The position numbers were made by a program, and so were the translations under genes. The notes under the pieces are model-generated. The model was not told the origin of the DNA. It made no database searches and saw only the letters and a list, made by a program, of their open reading frames with translations. From Gammaproteobacteria bacterium (GTDB taxonomy: Bacteria > Pseudomonadota > Gammaproteobacteria > Steroidobacterales > Woeseiaceae): a DNA stretch of 52,608 nt. This document shows positions 4,794-45,432 of this stretch, piece by piece; within the stretch, counting starts at the first letter, position 1; each line of letters starts with the position of its first letter. Location: positions 1 to 52,608 of the forward strand of contig JAUHZT010000005.1 in NCBI GenBank assembly GCA_030425905.1, written 5' to 3'.

Positions 4794-5714
4794 ATGCCTG
4801 CCGAGAACCCAGTAGAAAAACACAAAGAGCATGTCGTACTCGGTATGTCCGCGGCGATGGGCGCGTTCCTGATGTTTACGATCATGAATGTGCTGGCCAA
4901 ACTTCTGAGTGAGCGGCATTCGGTCATTGAGATTGCGTTCTACCGCAATGCGGTAGCGCTCATTCCCTTTCTCATCATGATATTCGCCATGGGCAGGCGC
5001 GATGTTCTCGTGATACGTCACAAGCCAGGCTGGGTAATTTTTCGTGCTGTGTTTGGCACGGTTTCCCTTTCAACAACCTTTGCTGCCTACGCACTGATGC
5101 CAATGGCAAATACAACCGCCCTGTTGTTCACAACGTCACTGTTTATTCCTGTTCTTGGCATCATCTTCCTCAAAGAACACGTTGGCGCTTACCGCTGGAC
5201 CGCCATCCTCGTAGGCTTTGTCGGCGTTATCGTGATGGTGAGGCCCTCCGGGCACCTGTATGCACTGGGCATCTCGCTGGCACTGGGTGCCGCGTTTCTG
5301 CAGGCTATCCTGCAAGTCGCGCTCCGCTATACGGGTCGTTTTGAACGACCGGAGACCGTGACTTTCTACTTCTTCCTCATTGGCGCAATTATTACGGCAA
5401 TCCCGTTGCCGTTTATTTTCGTCAAGCCGACGCTTGGCGAGCTGCCGTTACTACTTGGGGTAGGCCTGTCCGGCGCCGCTGCCCAGTGGTTATTTTCTAC
5501 GGCTTTTCGCAATGCGCCGGCAGCCATAGTTACGATTTTCAACTACAGCGGAATTGTCTGGGCAACGCTGTTCGGCTGGCTGATATGGAATGAATGGCCG
5601 CTGCCAATGGTGCTGGGCGGCGCTGCGGTTGTGATCGTCTCGAACGTGCTGATCATCTGGCGCGAGAGTCGTGTCCGTGAAATTACCGGCGACCGGATTC
5701 GCGCAAAACTCTAG
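4794..5714 (+). CDS. EamA/DMT-family transporter
   Basis: This is a 306-residue inner-membrane protein with about ten hydrophobic helices arranged as two EamA repeats, the usual size for the drug/metabolite transporter superfamily, which exports small metabolites or amino acids. The first repeat starts near LGMSAAMGAFLMFTIMNVLAK and the second near GISLALGAAFLQAILQVALR. The family signature of a short helix with Pro/Gly near each repeat end is present (VGVIVMVRPSG). I chose ATG 4794 (MPAENPVEKHKE) over an upstream TTG at 4758 because the extra residues are unlike a membrane protein N-terminus. It ends 6 bp before the convergent tpm stop. The substrate cannot be predicted. Confidence 0.88.
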   Translation: MPAENPVEKHKEHVVLGMSAAMGAFLMFTIMNVLAKLLSERHSVIEIAFYRNAVALIPFLIMIFAMGRRDVLVIRHKPGWVIFRAVFGTVSLSTTFAAYALMPMANTTALLFTTSLFIPVLGIIFLKEHVGAYRWTAILVGFVGVIVMVRPSGHLYALGISLALGAAFLQAILQVALRYTGRFERPETVTFYFFLIGAIITAIPLPFIFVKPTLGELPLLLGVGLSGAAAQWLFSTAFRNAPAAIVTIFNYSGIVWATLFGWLIWNEWPLPMVLGGAAVVIVSNVLIIWRESRVREITGDRIRAKL

Positions 5715-37419: not shown

Positions 37420-37540
37420 GGCAGGCCCTCGAAACGGTTGTTGAGTAACAAGGAGAATGGATCAGTCGATAATACTGCCAGTAGTTCGCAATGTCGCTCC
37501 TGTGTCAAACTGTCGCCAGTTGCTTATCTGGAGCTTGCAC

Positions 37541-38950
37541 ATGACCGAAGAGAGCTTTCCGGGCCCGAAAACACGCGCGGCGCTCGAACGAGGCATCCCG
37601 CTGTTCAAGAACGGCCTGCGTTTCAATGCCGAAATGGAGCGTGCCGGACAACGCGGCTTCCGCCCCGTACGCCAGATTGTCATCGACAAAGCCAAAGGTG
37701 ACTACGTCTGGGACCTCGACGGCAAGCGCTACATCGACTTCCAGAACGGCTGGGCGACGAATCCGCTCGGCAACTGTCACCCCGAAATCATAGCAGCGGT
37801 GGAGGCGGCGAACCGGCGCTTCGGTTTTCATTACGACCACCCCTTGCGCTACGACCTCGCCGAAATGCTTGCCGATGTTATGCCTGCGAAAGCACTGCCC
37901 AGAACCAATTACGAGGTATCCGGCACAGAGGCGGCCGAAGCGGCGGTGCACCTGGCGCTCACCCATACCAAGCGACGCTATATCATCACGTTCGCCTCGT
38001 CGTATCACGGCATGGGGCTGGGTACGAAGGTACTGAGCGGTCTCGACGGCAGCTACGGAACCTATCTTGAAGGCTGGGGCGGCGGCGTTATCAAGGCGCC
38101 ATACCCCTATAGCGACAAGATCCCGGCCGGTATGAGCGAAGAGCAATACACCGAGTATTGCCTCTGGTATCTCGACAACCACATCCCGTCGAGCATCGCT
38201 GCCCGCGACAATATTGCCGGCATCCTGGTTGAACCCGGGCTCGCCGAAGGTGGCAACTGGATTCCATCCACCCGCTTCCTGAAAGGAATCAGGGAGATCT
38301 GCGACAAGAACGACTGGCTCATGATTTCCGATGAAGTCCTCACAGGCCTTGGCCGAACCGGCCGGATGTGGGGCATCGAGCACTATGACGTTACGCCCGA
38401 CATACTCGTTTACGGGAAAAACCTTTCCGGTGGCATTGCGCCGCTGTGCGGCATCTCTGCCCGTGATGACATCATGGGCGACAACACCCGTTTCATGTCC
38501 GGCTCGACCTTCGCAGGCACGCCTGCCGGCTGTGCGGCAGCGATCCGTACCCTTGAGATTTTCGAGCGCGACCAGGTCGTGGCACATGCGAAACGGCTCG
38601 GCGATATAGCAACAGAAGTCATGAGCAAATGGGAATCGCACAGCATTGTGCGCCAGGCGCGCGGCAATGGTTTGCTGCTCGGCGTCAGTTTCTGTAAACC
38701 CGGGTCAGCCGCAGCAGAAGAAAAGGACTGGTGGACCGCGCGTGCGGTGCGCGGCAGGATGCTGGAAAACGGCGTGTGGGCAATCTCAGACCAGGAGAAC
38801 ACAATCCGGCTGTATCCGGCACTCAATATGCAGGAGTCAACCTTCCGGGAAGGGCTGCAGATCATGGAGGATGCGATCGAATACGTTGAGCAACACGGGC
38901 ATATCGAAGGCGATGCTGTCGCATTTCCAAGTGGTGTCTCAGGATTCTAA
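37541..38950 (+). CDS. Class III aminotransferase (PLP)
   Basis: The 469-residue fold-type I PLP enzyme belongs to aminotransferase class III. The PLP lysine is K293 in DILVYGKNLSGG, D264 sits in ISDEVLTGLGRTG, and the N-terminal region DYVWDLDGKRYIDFQNGWATNPLGNCHPEI is typical. It would move an amino group from an omega-amine (4-aminobutyrate, putrescine, taurine, beta-alanine) or act as a glutamate-1-semialdehyde aminomutase-like enzyme; the sequence does not settle which. ATG 37541 has CTGGAG in front; an upstream ATG at 37457 adds 28 unconvincing residues. A partner role with the two PuuB-like oxidases in polyamine breakdown is possible, though they lie more than 20 kb away. Confidence 0.87.
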   Translation: MTEESFPGPKTRAALERGIPLFKNGLRFNAEMERAGQRGFRPVRQIVIDKAKGDYVWDLDGKRYIDFQNGWATNPLGNCHPEIIAAVEAANRRFGFHYDHPLRYDLAEMLADVMPAKALPRTNYEVSGTEAAEAAVHLALTHTKRRYIITFASSYHGMGLGTKVLSGLDGSYGTYLEGWGGGVIKAPYPYSDKIPAGMSEEQYTEYCLWYLDNHIPSSIAARDNIAGILVEPGLAEGGNWIPSTRFLKGIREICDKNDWLMISDEVLTGLGRTGRMWGIEHYDVTPDILVYGKNLSGGIAPLCGISARDDIMGDNTRFMSGSTFAGTPAGCAAAIRTLEIFERDQVVAHAKRLGDIATEVMSKWESHSIVRQARGNGLLLGVSFCKPGSAAAEEKDWWTARAVRGRMLENGVWAISDQENTIRLYPALNMQESTFREGLQIMEDAIEYVEQHGHIEGDAVAFPSGVSGF

Positions 38951-39091
38951 GTGTGAATTGAGCACCTGGCGGATTCAGCAGACGCCGCGCCGGCGGCCTT
39001 GATCGAGTTTTCAAGCGGGCATGCTATGCCGGTACACTTGGCGCGCGCCGTGGCGACGGCCAATACCATTACATGCAAACAGGAACTTTTT

Positions 39092-39685
39092 ATGCCGGTT
39101 ATCGAACCTCTCGACGAAGATCAATTGGACGCTGAGCTGCGTGACTACGTGCAGTTCTTCAAAGGCCCACTCGGAGTAGTACCCAACAGTGTGCGCACGA
39201 TGGCGCGTCGCCCGAAGATTGCGAAAGCATTTACTGATCTGAACATCGCTGTGATGGAATGCAATGGCAAGGTCACTCCGGAGTTCAAACGTCTGATCGG
39301 CTTCGTAACCAGCATGGTATCCGGTTGCCGCTACTGTCAGGCACACACCATCCTCGGCTCAGAGCGGTTCGGTACATCAGAGGAACGTCTGAACAGTGTT
39401 TTGAACTACAGCGACAGTCCGCACTTTAGTGACGCAGAGAAGGCAGCACTCGATTTCGCGTTTGCCGCCGCGGAAGTACCCAATGGAGTGACTGAGGAGC
39501 ACGCAGAGAAACTTCGCGCCCACTGGTCAGAGGATGACATCGTCGAGATCATGGCTGTCATTGCGCTGTTCGGCTACCTGAATCGCTGGAACGACTCGAT
39601 GGGCTCTGCACTGGAAGACTTGCCGGTTCAGGCCGGTGAGAAATACCTCAACAAGCACGGCTGGACGGTTGGCAAGCACGCCTAG
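39092..39685 (+). CDS. AhpD-like carboxymuconolactone decarboxylase family peroxidase
   Basis: The 197-residue helical protein has the AhpD-type redox site C79-x2-C82-x2-H85 in VSGCRYCQAHT. Such proteins reduce peroxides or peroxiredoxins via a thiol pair or act as uncharacterised peroxidase-related enzymes. The C-terminal stretch IMAVIALFGYLNRWNDSMG is typical of the peroxidase-related (YciW/PA-type) subgroup. ATG 39092 follows AGGAA at close spacing; an upstream ATG at 38999 is less convincing. It lies upstream of the heme lipoprotein and ECF module on the same strand with 115 bp between, and the ECF-type promoter falls in this gap, so it probably is not part of that transcript. Confidence 0.88.
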   Translation: MPVIEPLDEDQLDAELRDYVQFFKGPLGVVPNSVRTMARRPKIAKAFTDLNIAVMECNGKVTPEFKRLIGFVTSMVSGCRYCQAHTILGSERFGTSEERLNSVLNYSDSPHFSDAEKAALDFAFAAAEVPNGVTEEHAEKLRAHWSEDDIVEIMAVIALFGYLNRWNDSMGSALEDLPVQAGEKYLNKHGWTVGKHA

Positions 39686-39741
39686 AGCGTGACGACGGCT
39701 ATTGGAGTTTGCATTAGCGTGCTGAAAATTTCGCGCGCGTA

Positions 39742-39768
39742 GGAACCTTTCCCGCACTGAATCATCTT
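39742..39768 (+). promoter_or_regulatory. Predicted ECF-sigma promoter, copy B
   Basis: GGAACC (39742-39747) and CATCTT (39763-39768) are separated by 15 bases, in front of the heme lipoprotein gene (ATG 39801). Around the boxes, GGAACCTTT and CATCTTG are identical, with identical spacing, to a second copy at 40340-40366. GGAAC is the usual -35 core of ECF sigma promoters, so control by the ECF factor encoded at 41489-42175 is the natural inference. Confidence 0.6.
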
Positions 39769-39800
39769 GCTGCGTAGTCAACACTGATTGCGAGAAGCTG

Positions 39801-40322
39801 ATGAAAACGACGACGAAGCCCCTGACGCTGCTACTGTGCAGTGTATTCCTTGCTGCGGCCTGTTCCGATAACGATTCGCTGCAGGTAATTGCCCCGGAAC
39901 CTGAGCCAGAGCCCGACCTGGTAACACCAAAATTGCCGGCATTGCTTGAATACCAGCACAGTCTCGATGCGCCGCGTCCGCCCGACGACAGTTACGACAT
40001 GGAAGCGGCTGAGCGCGGCAAGCGTCTGTTTGACGGAGCGGCTGGCTGTTCAGGCTGTCACTCCGGACCGCAATTTACTGACGCAGGCACTGCATTGCAC
40101 GAAGCACACGAGGTCGGAGCAGATCCTCTGTATGCAACCCGAACCATCACCCGCAAATACCGCACCACGCCGCTGCGAGCGCTCTGGCAGCACCCGCCTT
40201 ACTACCATAATGGCGAGTTCAATACGCTGGCTGAAGTAGTGGATCACTACGACCTCGTACACAACCTCGGGCTACAGAACAGCGACAAGAACGATCTCGT
40301 GGAGTACCTCAAGTCCTTGTAG
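39801..40322 (+). CDS. Single-heme lipoprotein of the MauG/cytochrome c peroxidase type
   Basis: The 173-residue product has a lipoprotein signal peptide (lipobox LAAAC, lipidated Cys21), a short linker rich in Pro and Glu, and one c-type heme site C83-S-G-C86-H87. The following region (TTPLRALWQHPPYYHNGEFNTLAEVVDHYD) is the C-terminal signature of bacterial di-heme cytochrome c peroxidases and MauG-like proteins. At 173 residues it holds only one of the two heme domains, so it may be an electron carrier or peroxidase partner and not a full peroxidase. An ECF-type promoter shared with the downstream operon lies directly upstream. Confidence 0.86.
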   Translation: MKTTTKPLTLLLCSVFLAAACSDNDSLQVIAPEPEPEPDLVTPKLPALLEYQHSLDAPRPPDDSYDMEAAERGKRLFDGAAGCSGCHSGPQFTDAGTALHEAHEVGADPLYATRTITRKYRTTPLRALWQHPPYYHNGEFNTLAEVVDHYDLVHNLGLQNSDKNDLVEYLKSL

Positions 40323-40339
40323 GAAATTGCCCCTCGCCG

Positions 40340-40366
40340 GGAACCTTTTTGGAACTCGTACATCTT
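40340..40366 (+). promoter_or_regulatory. Predicted ECF-sigma promoter, copy A
   Basis: GGAACC (40340-40345), 15-base spacer, CATCTT (40361-40366), in front of the ferritin-like/cytochrome c/sigma operon (ATG 40432). Box-to-box spacing and the extended GGAACCTTT and CATCTTG are identical to copy B, while spacer sequences differ. Because the operon encodes an ECF sigma factor, this is consistent with positive autoregulation. A second GGAACT lies inside the spacer. Confidence 0.62.
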
Positions 40367-40431
40367 GGGGGTTAAGCAGACCTTATATAACGAATGCCGC
40401 TGCGCCGGCCCCTACGTAAAAGGAAACAGAA

Positions 40432-41034
40432 ATGTCCACGAAAGATAACAACCCCGCACCAGCTCTACTCCTGGAAACCGCGCAACAAAGCCGTAGGCGA
40501 TTCATAGCTCGCGCAGGCGCCCTGACTTTTTCCGGTGTAGCCGTGGCGATGCTGGGCGGAAGATCGACAGCCCTGGCCGCCGGTACCGCCGACAAAGCAA
40601 TTGAACAGGATATTCGCATTCTCAATACAGCCATTGCCGCCGAACATGAAGCCGTCGCCGCCTACCAACTCGGTGCCGAAAGCGGTCTCCTGCAACCTGA
40701 GGTTCTTAAAGTTGCCGTCGCATTTCAGGGCCACCACAAGGAGCACGTTGACGCCCTGGTCAAAGCTGTTAGAAGCCTCGGCGGCAAGGACGCACAAGCG
40801 CGCGACGACTACCACTTCCCGGTTGATAAACTGAAGAAGCAGGCGGATGTACTGCAATTCGCCGCCGGCCTGGAGCGCGGTGCCGTCAGTGCCTATGCAG
40901 GTGCGATACCGGTGTTTGGCAATCGCGATCTCTCGGCTGCGGCGGCCAGCATCCTGGCTGACGAAGCCATGCACTGGGCTGTGCTGCGCCATGCGCTTGG
41001 CCTCGACCCTGTTCCCGGCGCCTTCTTTTCCTGA
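40432..41034 (+). CDS. Tat-exported ferritin-like domain protein
   Basis: The 200-residue product has a twin-arginine type signal (QSRRRFIARAGALTFSG...ALAA, about 20-50) and a four-helix ferritin-like domain. Likely diiron ligands are E71 in AEHEAVAAY, E104 or H105 in HHKEHVD, E148 in LERGAVSAY, and E178-x2-H181 in ADEAMHWAVLR. It would bind iron or another metal in the periplasm; ferritin-like proteins with Tat signals are often uncharacterised and may handle peroxide or store metal. The stop overlaps the cytochrome start as TGATG, so translation is coupled. It is the first gene of the predicted ECF-controlled operon. Confidence 0.87.
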   Translation: MSTKDNNPAPALLLETAQQSRRRFIARAGALTFSGVAVAMLGGRSTALAAGTADKAIEQDIRILNTAIAAEHEAVAAYQLGAESGLLQPEVLKVAVAFQGHHKEHVDALVKAVRSLGGKDAQARDDYHFPVDKLKKQADVLQFAAGLERGAVSAYAGAIPVFGNRDLSAAAASILADEAMHWAVLRHALGLDPVPGAFFS

Positions 41035-41489
41035 TGTACTGCAACCGTCCCTCGCTCTCCTGGCGTAGCCCCGCGGCCGCAGCGCTACTGGCAGCGACAG
41101 CAAGCATATTGTTGTCGCTGCCAGTCGCTGCTCAAGCGCCTGCCGATCTGGCCGCCGGAGAGCAGGCTTATGCCAAGTGCATGGGCTGCCACTCGCCGGA
41201 ACATAATCGAACCGGCCCCCTGCACTGCGGTTTGCTCGGCCGGGAATCCGGCAGCGTTAAGGACTATGATTACTCTCAGGCTATGCGCAAGGCGCGCATC
41301 ATCTGGAACGCCGAAACGCTGGATCAGTTTCTGGCCGCGCCGCTAAGCAATGTACCGGGCACCAGCATGGGATTCGCTGGCATTCCCGACTCGCAGGAGC
41401 GGCGCAACCTGATCGCATGGCTCGCGACACTTAACGCTTCGTCGGACCGGTGCCGCAGTATCCTGTCGAAACCAAGGGAGAACTCCTGA
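41034..41489 (+). CDS. Exported class I cytochrome c
   Basis: The 151-residue product has a signal peptide (about residues 1-34, ending VAAQA) and a class I cytochrome c fold: heme site C49-M-G-C52-H53, and a probable axial methionine M112 in PGTSMGFAGI. The text LLGRESGSVKDYDYS is typical of mitochondrial-type cytochromes c. It would carry electrons in the periplasm, possibly to the neighbouring heme lipoprotein or ferritin-like protein. Starts on the TGATG overlap with the previous gene and ends on another TGATG with the sigma gene. Confidence 0.9.
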   Translation: MYCNRPSLSWRSPAAAALLAATASILLSLPVAAQAPADLAAGEQAYAKCMGCHSPEHNRTGPLHCGLLGRESGSVKDYDYSQAMRKARIIWNAETLDQFLAAPLSNVPGTSMGFAGIPDSQERRNLIAWLATLNASSDRCRSILSKPRENS

Positions 41490-42175
41490 TGGCCAGCACA
41501 GCATCCGTCGTCCCCGCATCGTATGCACACCTGGACGACCTGAGCATTCTGAAGCGTATCGAGAAGGGTGAACTCGATGCCTACGAAGGAATCATGCGTC
41601 ATCATAATCAGCGCCTGTACCGAATCGCCCGCAGCATCGTTACCGACGATGCCGAGGCTATGGACGTGGTACAGGAAACGTTCATCGCCGCCTTCGAACG
41701 CCTGAATGAACTCCGGGAACCCGCGGCATTGCCCGCGTGGCTCGCAAGGATAACGCGCAATTCCGCGCTGATGCGCCTGCGAAAAAGCCAAAGGCTTAAA
41801 TTTATGGACGAGCCCGACTTCGACAACGTACTGAACTTGTCTTCCGCGCGGCGACCGGAACAACCCGACGCCAAACTTGCCAACAAACAGTTGAGCCGGT
41901 TGCTTGAGAAATTTATAGATGAACTGCCCGACGCCTTTCGCACAGTGTTCATGATGCGCGCGATTGAGCAATGCTCCGTAGCCACAACCGCCGAATTGCT
42001 CGACATCGCACCGAACACCGTCAAGACGCGCTACCATCGCGCCCGTCTGTTACTGCAGAAACAAATGATGGATTACAGTGACTCCGTTGGCGTCGCCGTG
42101 CACGAGTTTGCCGGACACCGCTGTGATGCAATTGTCTGCAACGTGCTGGCAACCTTACACGCGTCACGTCGATGA
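41489..42175 (+). CDS. ECF-subfamily RNA polymerase sigma factor
   Basis: The 228-residue sigma factor has region 2 (DAYEGIMRHHNQRLYRIARSIVTDDAEAMDVVQETFIAAFERL, residues 30-72 as separate blocks of the usual ECF consensus) and region 4 (ELPDAFRTVFMMRAIEQCSVATTAELLDIAPNTVKTRYHRAR, about 145-186). A C-terminal extension contains H206, H210, C212 and C217 (VHEFAGHRCDAIVC), a set that could bind metal. No anti-sigma gene is recognisable next to it. The start at ATG 41489 follows GGGAG and overlaps the cytochrome stop (TGATG). The gene appears autoregulated through promoter A. Confidence 0.9.
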   Translation: MASTASVVPASYAHLDDLSILKRIEKGELDAYEGIMRHHNQRLYRIARSIVTDDAEAMDVVQETFIAAFERLNELREPAALPAWLARITRNSALMRLRKSQRLKFMDEPDFDNVLNLSSARRPEQPDAKLANKQLSRLLEKFIDELPDAFRTVFMMRAIEQCSVATTAELLDIAPNTVKTRYHRARLLLQKQMMDYSDSVGVAVHEFAGHRCDAIVCNVLATLHASRR

Positions 42176-42340
42176 TCTTGGCCGCGTAGGCAACCCCGCC
42201 CGATACTCACATCAGCGCTGTGCACATCGCCTGCTGAATGCGTTAATCTCTGTATCTCAATTCGGTGGCAATACAGTGATTGCTCGTTCGGTAGCGGGCA
42301 TGCGCCCGTCATTCATCATCTAACCATCAGGAAACAGGCA

Positions 42341-43612
42341 ATGAAGCAGGAAACGCTGGCTATACACGCAGGCTACGAGACAGACCCCACCACGAAATCG
42401 GTGGCCGTGCCTATTTACCAAACCGTTGCATATGAATTCGATAACGCGCAGCACGGAGCGGACCTGTTTGACCTGGCGGTGCCCGGCAATATTTATACGC
42501 GGATCATGAACCCCACGAACGACGTGCTGGAGAAGCGCGTCGCCGCGCTGGAAGGCGGCCTCGCAGCGCTTGCCGTCAGCTCCGGTATGGCGGCGATCAA
42601 CTACGCGATTCTTACGATTGCCAAAGCAGGTGACAACATTGTCACGACGCCGCAATTGTACGGTGGCACCTACACACTGTTCGCCCATATGTTTCCCTCG
42701 CAGGGCATTGAGGTGCGATTTGCGGAAGATGATTCGGCCGCCGCCATCGAGAAGCTGATAGATGACAAAACCAAAGCGGTTTTCTGTGAATCCATCGGAA
42801 ATCCGGCTGGCAATATTGTCGATCTGGAGCCCATCGCAGCAGCCGCACACAAGCATGGCGTCGCAGTGATCGTCGACAACACGGTTGCCACCCCCGCGCT
42901 GTGTCAGCCCATCGAATTCGGCGCCGACATCGTTGTACACGCACTCACGAAGTACATCGGTGGCCACGGCAATTCGATCGGCGGCATCATCGTCGATTCC
43001 GGCAAGTTCCCGTGGGCAGAGCACAAGGCGCGCTATCCGGAACTGAACGAACCGGAGGCGGCCTACCATGGTGTCGTGTATGCAGAAGCCCTGGGCGAAG
43101 CCGCTTACATTGGCCGCGCGCGGACCGTGCCTTTGCGCAATACCGGGTCTGCACTGGCGCCAATGAACGCGTTCCTTATCCTGCAAGGTCTTGAAACGCT
43201 AAACCTGCGCATGGAACGGCATTGCGAAAACGCGCATGCCGTCGCTAACTACCTGAAGAACCACAAGAGCGTGGAATGGGTTAGCTTTGCCGGTCTCGAA
43301 GACCATCCGCACCATGCACTGGCGCAGAAATACTGCAAGGGCAGCCCCGCGTCCCTGCTTACCTTTGGCATCAAAGGCGGCCTGGAAGCCGGCATTCGAT
43401 TCTATGACGAGCTGAAACTCGTAAAACGGCTGGTGAATATCGGCGATGCAAAAACGCTCGCCTGTCACCCTGCCTCGACGACCCATCGCCAGCTGACCGA
43501 AGCCGAACAGCTGAGTGCCGGTGTCGCACCGGAGGCTATCCGGATCTGCGTTGGCATCGAGCATATCGACGACATCATTGCTGATTTCGAGCAGGCATTC
43601 AGCGCCGTTTAA
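42341..43612 (+). CDS. metY: O-acetylhomoserine sulfhydrylase / aminocarboxypropyltransferase (MetY)
   Basis: The 423-residue Cys/Met-metabolism PLP enzyme makes homocysteine from O-acetylhomoserine and sulphide. The family length and start (MKQETLAIHAGYETDPTTKSVAVPIYQTVAYEF), the YTRIMNPTNDVLEKRVAALEGG block, the PLP-binding HALTKYIGGHG lysine, and the late THRQLTEAEQLSAGV are typical of MetY/OAHS and longer than MetB/MetC. AGGAAACAGGC precedes the ATG. I looked for a SAM riboswitch in the 165-bp leader and recognised none. It lies downstream of the sigma gene on the same strand, but the gap suggests a separate transcript. Confidence 0.95.
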   Translation: MKQETLAIHAGYETDPTTKSVAVPIYQTVAYEFDNAQHGADLFDLAVPGNIYTRIMNPTNDVLEKRVAALEGGLAALAVSSGMAAINYAILTIAKAGDNIVTTPQLYGGTYTLFAHMFPSQGIEVRFAEDDSAAAIEKLIDDKTKAVFCESIGNPAGNIVDLEPIAAAAHKHGVAVIVDNTVATPALCQPIEFGADIVVHALTKYIGGHGNSIGGIIVDSGKFPWAEHKARYPELNEPEAAYHGVVYAEALGEAAYIGRARTVPLRNTGSALAPMNAFLILQGLETLNLRMERHCENAHAVANYLKNHKSVEWVSFAGLEDHPHHALAQKYCKGSPASLLTFGIKGGLEAGIRFYDELKLVKRLVNIGDAKTLACHPASTTHRQLTEAEQLSAGVAPEAIRICVGIEHIDDIIADFEQAFSAV

Positions 43613-43734
43613 AAAGCGTAGTTTTGGTTAGTACCACCTGCTGATCGGCCACGGATTTCGCCGTCGGCCCTCGCAAAGCGCGAAGGATTTTCTATCGCGC
43701 ACCGTCTTACCTGCGACGGGAGCTCCGACACATC

Positions 43735-45432
43735 GTGACCCCGTCAGGGCCGGCAGCCTCACCACAGAGGCTGCCGGGACTTTGCGGTATCGCGCCGGAC
43801 ACGCAGCGGGTAAGCATCATCAAGATCAAGTCTTTCGTCAGGCCAGTTTCGGCAACCCGGCTTCTTCTACTGAGCAGTTTATTTCTGGTGGCCAGCGCCA
43901 ACGGTACTTTCTTCTCGAAGGTTGCCGAAGTCTATCCGTTGCAGGCGGCCAACCTCGGATTCCTCACATCACTTGCGGTCTTCACCACGGCGCTACTGGT
44001 TCTCGTGATGGCCCTGTTCAGCCTCCTCCTGCCGGTCCGACTGGTTGTAAGCCTGTTCATCGCGTTGTCTGCTCCGATCGCCTATGTCGCGGCGAGCTTC
44101 GGCGCGATTATCGACGACGCAATGATCCAGAATATCCTGGAGACCGATACGGCCGAAGCCTTTGATCTTCTGAGCCTTCGTTTCTTGTTGCGCATATTGC
44201 TGATCGGTATCTTGCCAGTCGCGCTGGTGTGGTTCTGGCCCTTGAAACCAGCACCGGTCCTGCAGCGCCTACGACACCGGTCGATGCTTGCGGCCGGAGC
44301 ATTCGCGACACTCCTGGTCTGTGTTGTTAGTTTTGGTACTGGCTACGCCGACTTTTTTCGTGAGCACAAACCGTTGCGTTTCTATGCGAACCCGGTCTAT
44401 GCCGTGTACTCGATCGGTAGCTACTTCACCGAACAAGTCTTCGCCGGGAAGGTTCAAACGTTCGCAAGCGTTTTGCCCGAGGCCAAGCTACACCTGGAAA
44501 TCGGTCATCGGGAGCTGATCATCATGGTTGTCGGTGAAACCGCTCGTGCCGATCGATTCTCGCTAAACGGTTACGAGCGCAACACGAACCCCCGACTCGC
44601 AAACGAGTCCGGTTTAATCAGCTATACCAACGTCAGCGCTTGCGGAACATCGACCGCCGTGTCCGTGCCCTGCATGTTCGTGCCGGAAGGGCGCGCTGAG
44701 TTCACGCGAAACTCGGTTTACGCAAACGAAAACCTGCTTGACGTGTTACAGCGCGCAGGCGTGAACGTTCTTTGGCGCGACAATAACTCCGGCTCAAAGG
44801 GAGTTGCGGAGCGCGTTCCGTTTGAAGCTTTCAGCTCACCGGATGTGAACCCGGTCTGCGACGAGGAATGTCGCGACGTCGGCCTGCTCAGTGGCTTGCA
44901 GGAGTACATCGACTCGGTAGATGGCGACATTCTGATAGTGCTACATCAGATGGGTAGCCACGGCCCAGCCTATTTTCGACGGTACCCTGCCGAGTTCGAG
45001 CAATACACACCCGCGTGCCACTCCGCAGACCTGAACGATTGTGATCAGGTTGAGATTCAGAATGCCTACGACAATACGATCCTGTATACCGACTACTTTC
45101 TGTCGGAAGTTATTGCTCTTCTGAAACGGAATACCCCCGCCTTCGAAACCGCCATGCTATACGTCAGCGATCATGGCGAATCGCTGGGTGAGAGAGGTAT
45201 TTACCTGCACGGCCTTCCTTATATGTTCGCGCCGCACGAACAAACGAAAGTACCGCTGATACTATGGGCGGGCAGCACATCGGATATTGACATCAATAGT
45301 GCGATCAGAAAAAAGGACCTGCCGCATTCACACGACTCGATATTCAATTCAATGCTGGCAACATTCGAAATCGAGGAAACACTGCCAGGAATGCCATATT
45401 CCCTCTACGACGTCGTCGGCAACAATGGTTAA
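43735..45432 (+). CDS. eptA: Lipid A phosphoethanolamine transferase (EptA/MCR-like)
   Basis: The 565-residue enzyme has an N-terminal five-helix membrane domain and a C-terminal periplasmic alkaline-phosphatase-like domain. It moves phosphoethanolamine from phosphatidylethanolamine onto lipid A, lowering surface charge. Catalytic residues: E268 in VVGETARAD, the nucleophile T305 in CGTSTAVSVPC, and the zinc site SDHGESLGE, with disulphide cysteines flanking the Thr as in MCR-1. The start is GTG 43735 with GGGAG upstream; the N-terminal 25 residues are not conserved-looking, so a later start is possible, but none has a ribosome site. A PAP2 phosphatase follows after 3 bp, as beside mcr-1. Confidence 0.93.
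   Translation: MTPSGPAASPQRLPGLCGIAPDTQRVSIIKIKSFVRPVSATRLLLLSSLFLVASANGTFFSKVAEVYPLQAANLGFLTSLAVFTTALLVLVMALFSLLLPVRLVVSLFIALSAPIAYVAASFGAIIDDAMIQNILETDTAEAFDLLSLRFLLRILLIGILPVALVWFWPLKPAPVLQRLRHRSMLAAGAFATLLVCVVSFGTGYADFFREHKPLRFYANPVYAVYSIGSYFTEQVFAGKVQTFASVLPEAKLHLEIGHRELIIMVVGETARADRFSLNGYERNTNPRLANESGLISYTNVSACGTSTAVSVPCMFVPEGRAEFTRNSVYANENLLDVLQRAGVNVLWRDNNSGSKGVAERVPFEAFSSPDVNPVCDEECRDVGLLSGLQEYIDSVDGDILIVLHQMGSHGPAYFRRYPAEFEQYTPACHSADLNDCDQVEIQNAYDNTILYTDYFLSEVIALLKRNTPAFETAMLYVSDHGESLGERGIYLHGLPYMFAPHEQTKVPLILWAGSTSDIDINSAIRKKDLPHSHDSIFNSMLATFEIEETLPGMPYSLYDVVGNNG

Follow-up and report, generated by a model that had tools for sequence, protein, structure and literature searches.

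Paired promoter-like elements point to a small, conserved ECF sigma factor regulon of redox genes, predicted to be self-amplifying, in Woeseiales

Two copies of a promoter-like element lie 598 bases apart on the + strand of the window (the whole stretch of 52,608 nucleotides analysed here), one before the gene of a haem lipoprotein and the other before an operon that contains the gene of an ECF sigma factor. Which regulator reads these elements, and does the sigma factor drive both units, including itself, as a preliminary description of the locus had proposed? The copies, at 39742-39768 and 40340-40366, each consist of GGAACCTTT (putative -35 elements at 39742-39750 and 40340-40348) followed by CATCTTG (putative -10 elements at 39763-39769 and 40361-40367). 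A GGAAC core and this -35/-10 distance are features of ECF promoters. In both copies 15 bases separate GGAACC from CATCTT and the spacer bases differ, exactly as had been described, and in 100 shuffles of the window, with N13 to N17 allowed, the mean number of matches was 0.01 and no shuffle held two. CATC ends 35 bases before the start of the lipoprotein gene and 68 bases before the start of the operon. Only 17 bases lie between the lipoprotein stop codon and the second element, so that transcripts from the first promoter may run on into the operon. Sigma-70-like promoters and terminators inside the locus were no more frequent than in shuffled sequence, and both were rejected as candidates.

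The gene behind the first element (39801-40322, + strand) encodes a c-type haem lipoprotein of 173 amino acids, whose lipobox was read from the sequence. A haem lipoprotein had been described here, and the gene does stand behind the element, but the product contains only one CxxCH, against two in each of four relatives of 387-391 amino acids. It represents an in-frame internal deletion of the two-haem relative, in which the first haem site has been lost, and it lacks the two CxxCH motifs of the di-haem cytochrome c peroxidase / MauG proteins. The database entry for the 173-amino-acid form has two member sequences and 10 contigs, including that of the window, which argues against a single assembly slip, although all may come from one population. 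An intact two-haem paralogue is encoded on contig C30 of the same genome. The two-haem lipoprotein appears to be a distant relative of bacterial cytochrome c peroxidases; the relative in genome G039 has a weak PDB match to 3o5c (E 5.8e-4). Directly upstream of the locus, at 38999-39685, is a carboxymuconolactone decarboxylase family gene (PF02627) without the element, which scores just below the cut-off of a 'peroxidase-related enzyme'.

The second unit has the composition given in the preliminary description: ferritin-like protein, cytochrome c and ECF sigma factor. Its first gene (40432-41034, + strand) encodes a protein of 200 amino acids with a twin-arginine type leader, read from the sequence, that scores 115 bits against the Ferritin_2 family (PF13668; gathering cut-off 24.7 bits). 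Among solved structures its best-scoring relative is RvY_06210, a metabolite phosphatase with a ferritin fold, as stated in the part of the source used here (PMC11616004), and 'iron store' is therefore an unsafe name that we rejected. The next gene (41034-41489, + strand) encodes a c-type cytochrome of 151 amino acids, and its start overlaps the ferritin stop codon; the last (41489-42175, + strand) encodes an ECF sigma factor of 228 amino acids from the ATG at 41489 (NCBIfam PRK11922), and its start overlaps the cytochrome stop codon. Both junctions are TGATG stop/start overlaps, so the operon reads as one transcript and the sigma gene most likely relies on the promoter upstream of the ferritin-like gene.

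We propose that the two elements are the -35 and -10 boxes of ECF promoters in a small conserved redox regulon whose sigma factor amplifies itself, and we hold this explanation as a whole to be highly probable. The elements, the gene order, their conservation and their co-occurrence with the sigma factor are, at the level of sequence, read directly. From these we infer that RNA polymerase with the sigma factor encoded at 41489-42175, or with its paralogue, would begin transcription a few bases past CATCTT. The second promoter would then yield the ferritin-like protein, the cytochrome c and the sigma factor from one translationally coupled operon, and since the sigma gene lies in the operon of its own promoter, the sigma factor would amplify itself. 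The conserved regulon would comprise the ferritin-like protein, the cytochrome c, the two-haem lipoprotein and the sigma factor, extended by rubredoxin and FolE2 in the C30 cluster and G039 and by a DUF2231 operon in Woeseia oceani. Its likely role would be defence at the periplasm, against an oxidant or against metal/redox stress, a role suggested by the content of ferritin-like, haem and rubredoxin proteins and FolE2.

A search of the source genome (3.38 Mb, 240 contigs) indicates that the element marks more than one locus. The exact pattern GGAACC-N15-CATCTT, put forward as the signature of the regulon, marks both copies in the window and has one further match genome-wide (none in the reversed control), but it misses a second cluster of the same genome, and we rejected it as too narrow. 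Conversely, GGAACC-N14..17-CATC without the TTT was rejected as too loose, with 27 matches in the genome and eight in the reversed control; when a G was added before CATC, still without TTT, 20 of 20 genomes had a match among the matches listed. The relaxed element GGAACCTTT-N11..14-CATC has five matches in the genome and none in the reversed control, and all five precede genes of two related clusters, two in the window and three on contig C30. The TTT after GGAACC belongs to the element. The C30 cluster (C30:1-5504) encodes a paralogous sigma factor, 54-58% identical to that of the window, and its elements precede rubredoxin-folE2, the intact two-haem lipoprotein gene and ferritin-cytochrome-sigma. 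G039 carries the same three-promoter cluster; in both genomes folE2 sits behind the element and the rubredoxin gene, and it is absent from the window's own cluster. The third exact match (4843-4869 of locus L032, on contig C222) has no TTT and lies across the earliest potential start codon, a TTG, of an M16 peptidase frame; the proposed regulon does not account for it. In G037 a protease gene, M16-like by eye, is convergent to dihaem-sigma (L030, 1069-3924).

The association of the element with the sigma factor extends to other genomes. We compared 119 genomes, the source genome included, of which six have a sigma factor at least 57% identical and 113 do not. The strict element was present in all six genomes with a close sigma factor and in 15 of the 113 others (Fisher 1.6e-5), and a relative of the ferritin-like protein (E <= 1e-20) in five of the six and none of the 113 (Fisher 3.3e-8); both p-values are overstated by kinship, because the genomes are related and not independent. 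Sixteen of the 18 matches in the six genomes precede regulon genes, one of them (contig C79 of G054) judged by eye with the N-terminus at the contig end, and the other two fall in unrelated coding sequence. None of the 16 matches in the 113 genomes without a close sigma factor precedes a recognisable regulon gene, as judged from first residues. The reversed strict pattern had 15 matches in all 119 genomes and none in the six. We also took a set of 15 genomes picked for having relatives of the sigma factor, the most distant at about 42% identity; here regulon gene families, some of them unlinked, follow 20 of the 23 matches (the C79 match by eye is included, and for part of the loci the families were judged from first residues, not by search). 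Four of these 15 genomes have no strict match, and the sole match in G046 is in coding sequence. The check set in the preliminary description, enrichment of the motif near relatives of these genes, gave a strongly positive outcome in the source genome and its relatives. Chance, or a recent and functionless duplication of one promoter, would suit two copies in one locus only 598 bases apart, but the spacers differ, the motif is found at orthologous loci, and in other genera and families the same genes again follow such elements, with variable sequence around them; we regard this explanation as extremely improbable. A degenerate copy of the sigma gene with stop codons lies beside a two-haem gene in G054 (L026, contig C159), and in G248 a GTP cyclohydrolase I gene (PF01227; L093, 4445-5068) near ferritin-cytochrome-sigma is a second link to GTP cyclohydrolases.

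Rearranged loci separate regulation from mere linkage. The element precedes the sigma operon in W. oceani (G496) and in other families, and where intervening genes are gone it stays with the sigma gene: in G054 it stands immediately before sigma, and in G066, whose cluster has no ferritin gene, it stands before cytochrome-sigma. The ferritin gene of G066 is found on a different contig, behind an element that differs slightly, GGAACCTAT...TGCATC. The two-haem gene of G014 is on a separate contig and retains the element, and in W. oceani the element also precedes the two-haem gene. A third match in W. oceani, about 0.9 Mb away, lies before an operon that encodes a small hydrophobic protein together with a DUF2231 protein, and homologues of these two (67% and 44% identical) adjoin the sigma and two-haem genes in G046. 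Genes that are found by the element in one genome and linked to the sigma gene in another are good evidence for a regulon.

These genomes also bear on which of two sigma factors uses the promoters of the window. Because the paralogue has nearly the same promoters, sole responsibility of the window sigma factor is not established, and the promoters might be used mainly by the C30 paralogue, or by both factors in a two-sigma network, if the window sigma factor has drifted or cross-talks. In favour of this, the C30 cluster contains three elements that are nearly identical, and its two-haem gene is intact; the window lipoprotein is internally deleted, and the window sites are of the N15 type with no G in front of CATC, where the C30 sites have N16 and GCATC. 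Set against this, W. oceani, G014 and G066 keep the element before an operon with one window-type sigma factor and no second at E <= 1e-40, which indicates that the window type alone goes with the element, and the reading frame of the window sigma factor is intact with its conserved residues present. We consider control mainly through the paralogue, or through both factors, possible but less likely than not.

In a search for dyads (5-mer/4-mer) in 21 upstream regions, GGAAC-N16/17-CATC and its shifts came out on top, in 20 of 21 regions, and at most five regions shared a dyad in 100 shuffled sets, which keep base composition only. The regions came from loci found through the sigma factor, except the G014 two-haem gene, which was found through the element; unit starts were chosen after the element had been seen, some of them set by hand. 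The region missed is presumably that of folE2 in G039, where the element lies 273 bases upstream and the search covered 260. Alignment of 25 sites gave the consensus CGGGAACCTTT-N11/12-TGCATCTT. The sites were selected by GGAACC and CATC, so these columns are conserved by construction, and the information lies in the CG at the flank, in the TG that precedes CATC and partly in the TTT. The distance from GGAACC to CATC is 15 bases in 11 of the sites and 16 in 14, and a G precedes CATC in 23 of 25, the only two exceptions being the window copies. The -10 box proposed earlier, CATCTTG, is present in both window copies, but the core conserved across the aligned sites is (T)GCATC, and relatives of the lipoprotein promoter mostly have TGCATC. 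CATC mostly ends 24-72 bases before the start codon (outliers 7, 11 and 136).

A site upstream of several operons would fit any regulator, and the paired boxes could in principle be bound by an activator or repressor of the classical kind. We judge this very improbable: the boxes form neither an inverted nor a direct repeat, the -35/-10 distance and the GGAAC core are as in ECF promoters, most CATC ends lie within the 24-72 bases just given, the element is associated with genomes in which the sigma factor is present, and by eye no other regulator gene recurs beside the listed clusters. The ECF promoter reading of a real, conserved and small regulon is largely supported by these sequence comparisons, and the preliminary description appears right in essence.

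The sigma factor itself has regions sigma2 and sigma4 only, as is characteristic of ECF (group IV) factors, in an intact frame with conserved residues kept. It scores 241.9 bits against PRK11922 (cut-off 204) and the C30 paralogue 240.6. The name of this model tells nothing of a regulon, a signal or a promoter, and it did not occur in the literature searched. The element is conserved before the factor's own operon, and the factor is predicted to recognise its GGAAC-type -35. No anti-sigma domain was found in the eight window proteins scanned (37457-45432) and no anti-sigma gene was recognised by eye in the ORF lists of relatives; an unlinked anti-sigma factor elsewhere in the genome is possible. 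About 28 residues follow region 4, with the motif GxRCD. One of the three cysteines of the protein, Cys212, lies in this extension and is found in 128 of 130 sigma sequences, and Cys162 is found in 118 of 130. In the predicted structure (pLDDT 82.3, pTM 0.55) a confident C-terminal helix spans residues 209-227, and none of the 50 matches listed aligns past residue 205. The sigma factor might itself be a redox sensor that needs no anti-sigma factor, in which the Cys212 helix, together with Cys162 beside region 4 in the close clade, gates promoter binding and the factor autoregulates a stress regulon of periplasmic haem/ferritin-like proteins and cytoplasmic rubredoxin-FolE2. The two factors may then be insulated by the one-base difference in spacing and by the base before CATC. 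Cys162 is replaced by Leu or Met in all 10 divergent sigma factors added by hand, which weakens the general idea of a disulfide, and we regard self-sensing as a speculative and rather unlikely refinement of the proposed regulon.

The promoter sequence of the Rhodobacter RpoE-ChrR system differs from the element here. That singlet-oxygen ECF regulon comprises 15 genes, including folE2 and the cytochrome c gene cycA, in the section of the report on which we rely (PMC7074977). The likeness lies in folE2 among the targets (here in the C30 cluster and G039) and in a cytochrome c gene in the regulon; unlike it, the eight window proteins scanned include no ChrR-type partner, and ferritin-like, two-haem lipoprotein and rubredoxin genes are not in its target table as excerpted. 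EcfQ and EcfF of Bradyrhizobium japonicum are ROS-inducible ECF factors, according to an extract of their description (PMC3420878). EcfF is autoregulated and works with the anti-sigma factor OsrA, and EcfQ (class 33), like the sigma factor here, has no predicted anti-sigma gene nearby. EcfQ (ECF33) was rejected as the same system, since this extract describes an EcfQ promoter that suggests control by a different, unknown regulator, and no motif common to the EcfQ targets. CorE-type ECF238 factors of Myxococcus are controlled by a C-terminal extension with cysteines and no separate anti-sigma factor, in the passages cited here (PMC8999054), whereas the extension of about 28 residues described here has one nearly invariant Cys and no cysteine-rich domain. 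Our literature searches found no published description of the regulon, and there was no mention of GGAACC or ferritin in one part of the ECF literature examined, nor of ferritin or cytochrome in another; an ECF group number and motif for the sigma factor may already be in print. The principle is ordinary; the gene content, the lack of an evident anti-sigma factor and the paired sigma factors in one genome are of interest. For an ECF group with no described regulon in those searches, the analysis supplies a short list of genes and a promoter code that lends itself to testing, and it raises the question of what switches an ECF factor that has no evident anti-sigma partner. The combination of ferritin-like, haem, rubredoxin and FolE2 functions echoes the Rhodobacter singlet-oxygen response. 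The predicted regulon is present in Woeseiales, among them the named species W. oceani; the clade is distributed globally in marine sediments according to the part of the source used (PMC7451513).

More divergent forms of the element accompany more divergent sigma factors. At 12 further loci, with sigma factors about 36-46% identical, a looser pattern recovered related elements at nine: GGAACCTC...GCGTC or similar in G037, G046 and G519, GGAACCTCC...GCATC in G654, GGAACCTT...GCATTTA in G426 and G197, GGAACCTT...CGTC in G094, and GGAACG...CATCCAA before DUF4142 genes upstream of sigma in G624 and G546. The looser pattern found no element at the other three, G576, where a CATCCAA box alone is visible, and G583 and G608, where the operon start is uncertain. 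Distant relatives of the sigma factor stand behind DUF4142 genes at loci L125, L127 and L128, with cupredoxin genes too at the first two, which suggests a wider theme of a small helical protein, a small redox protein and an ECF sigma factor.
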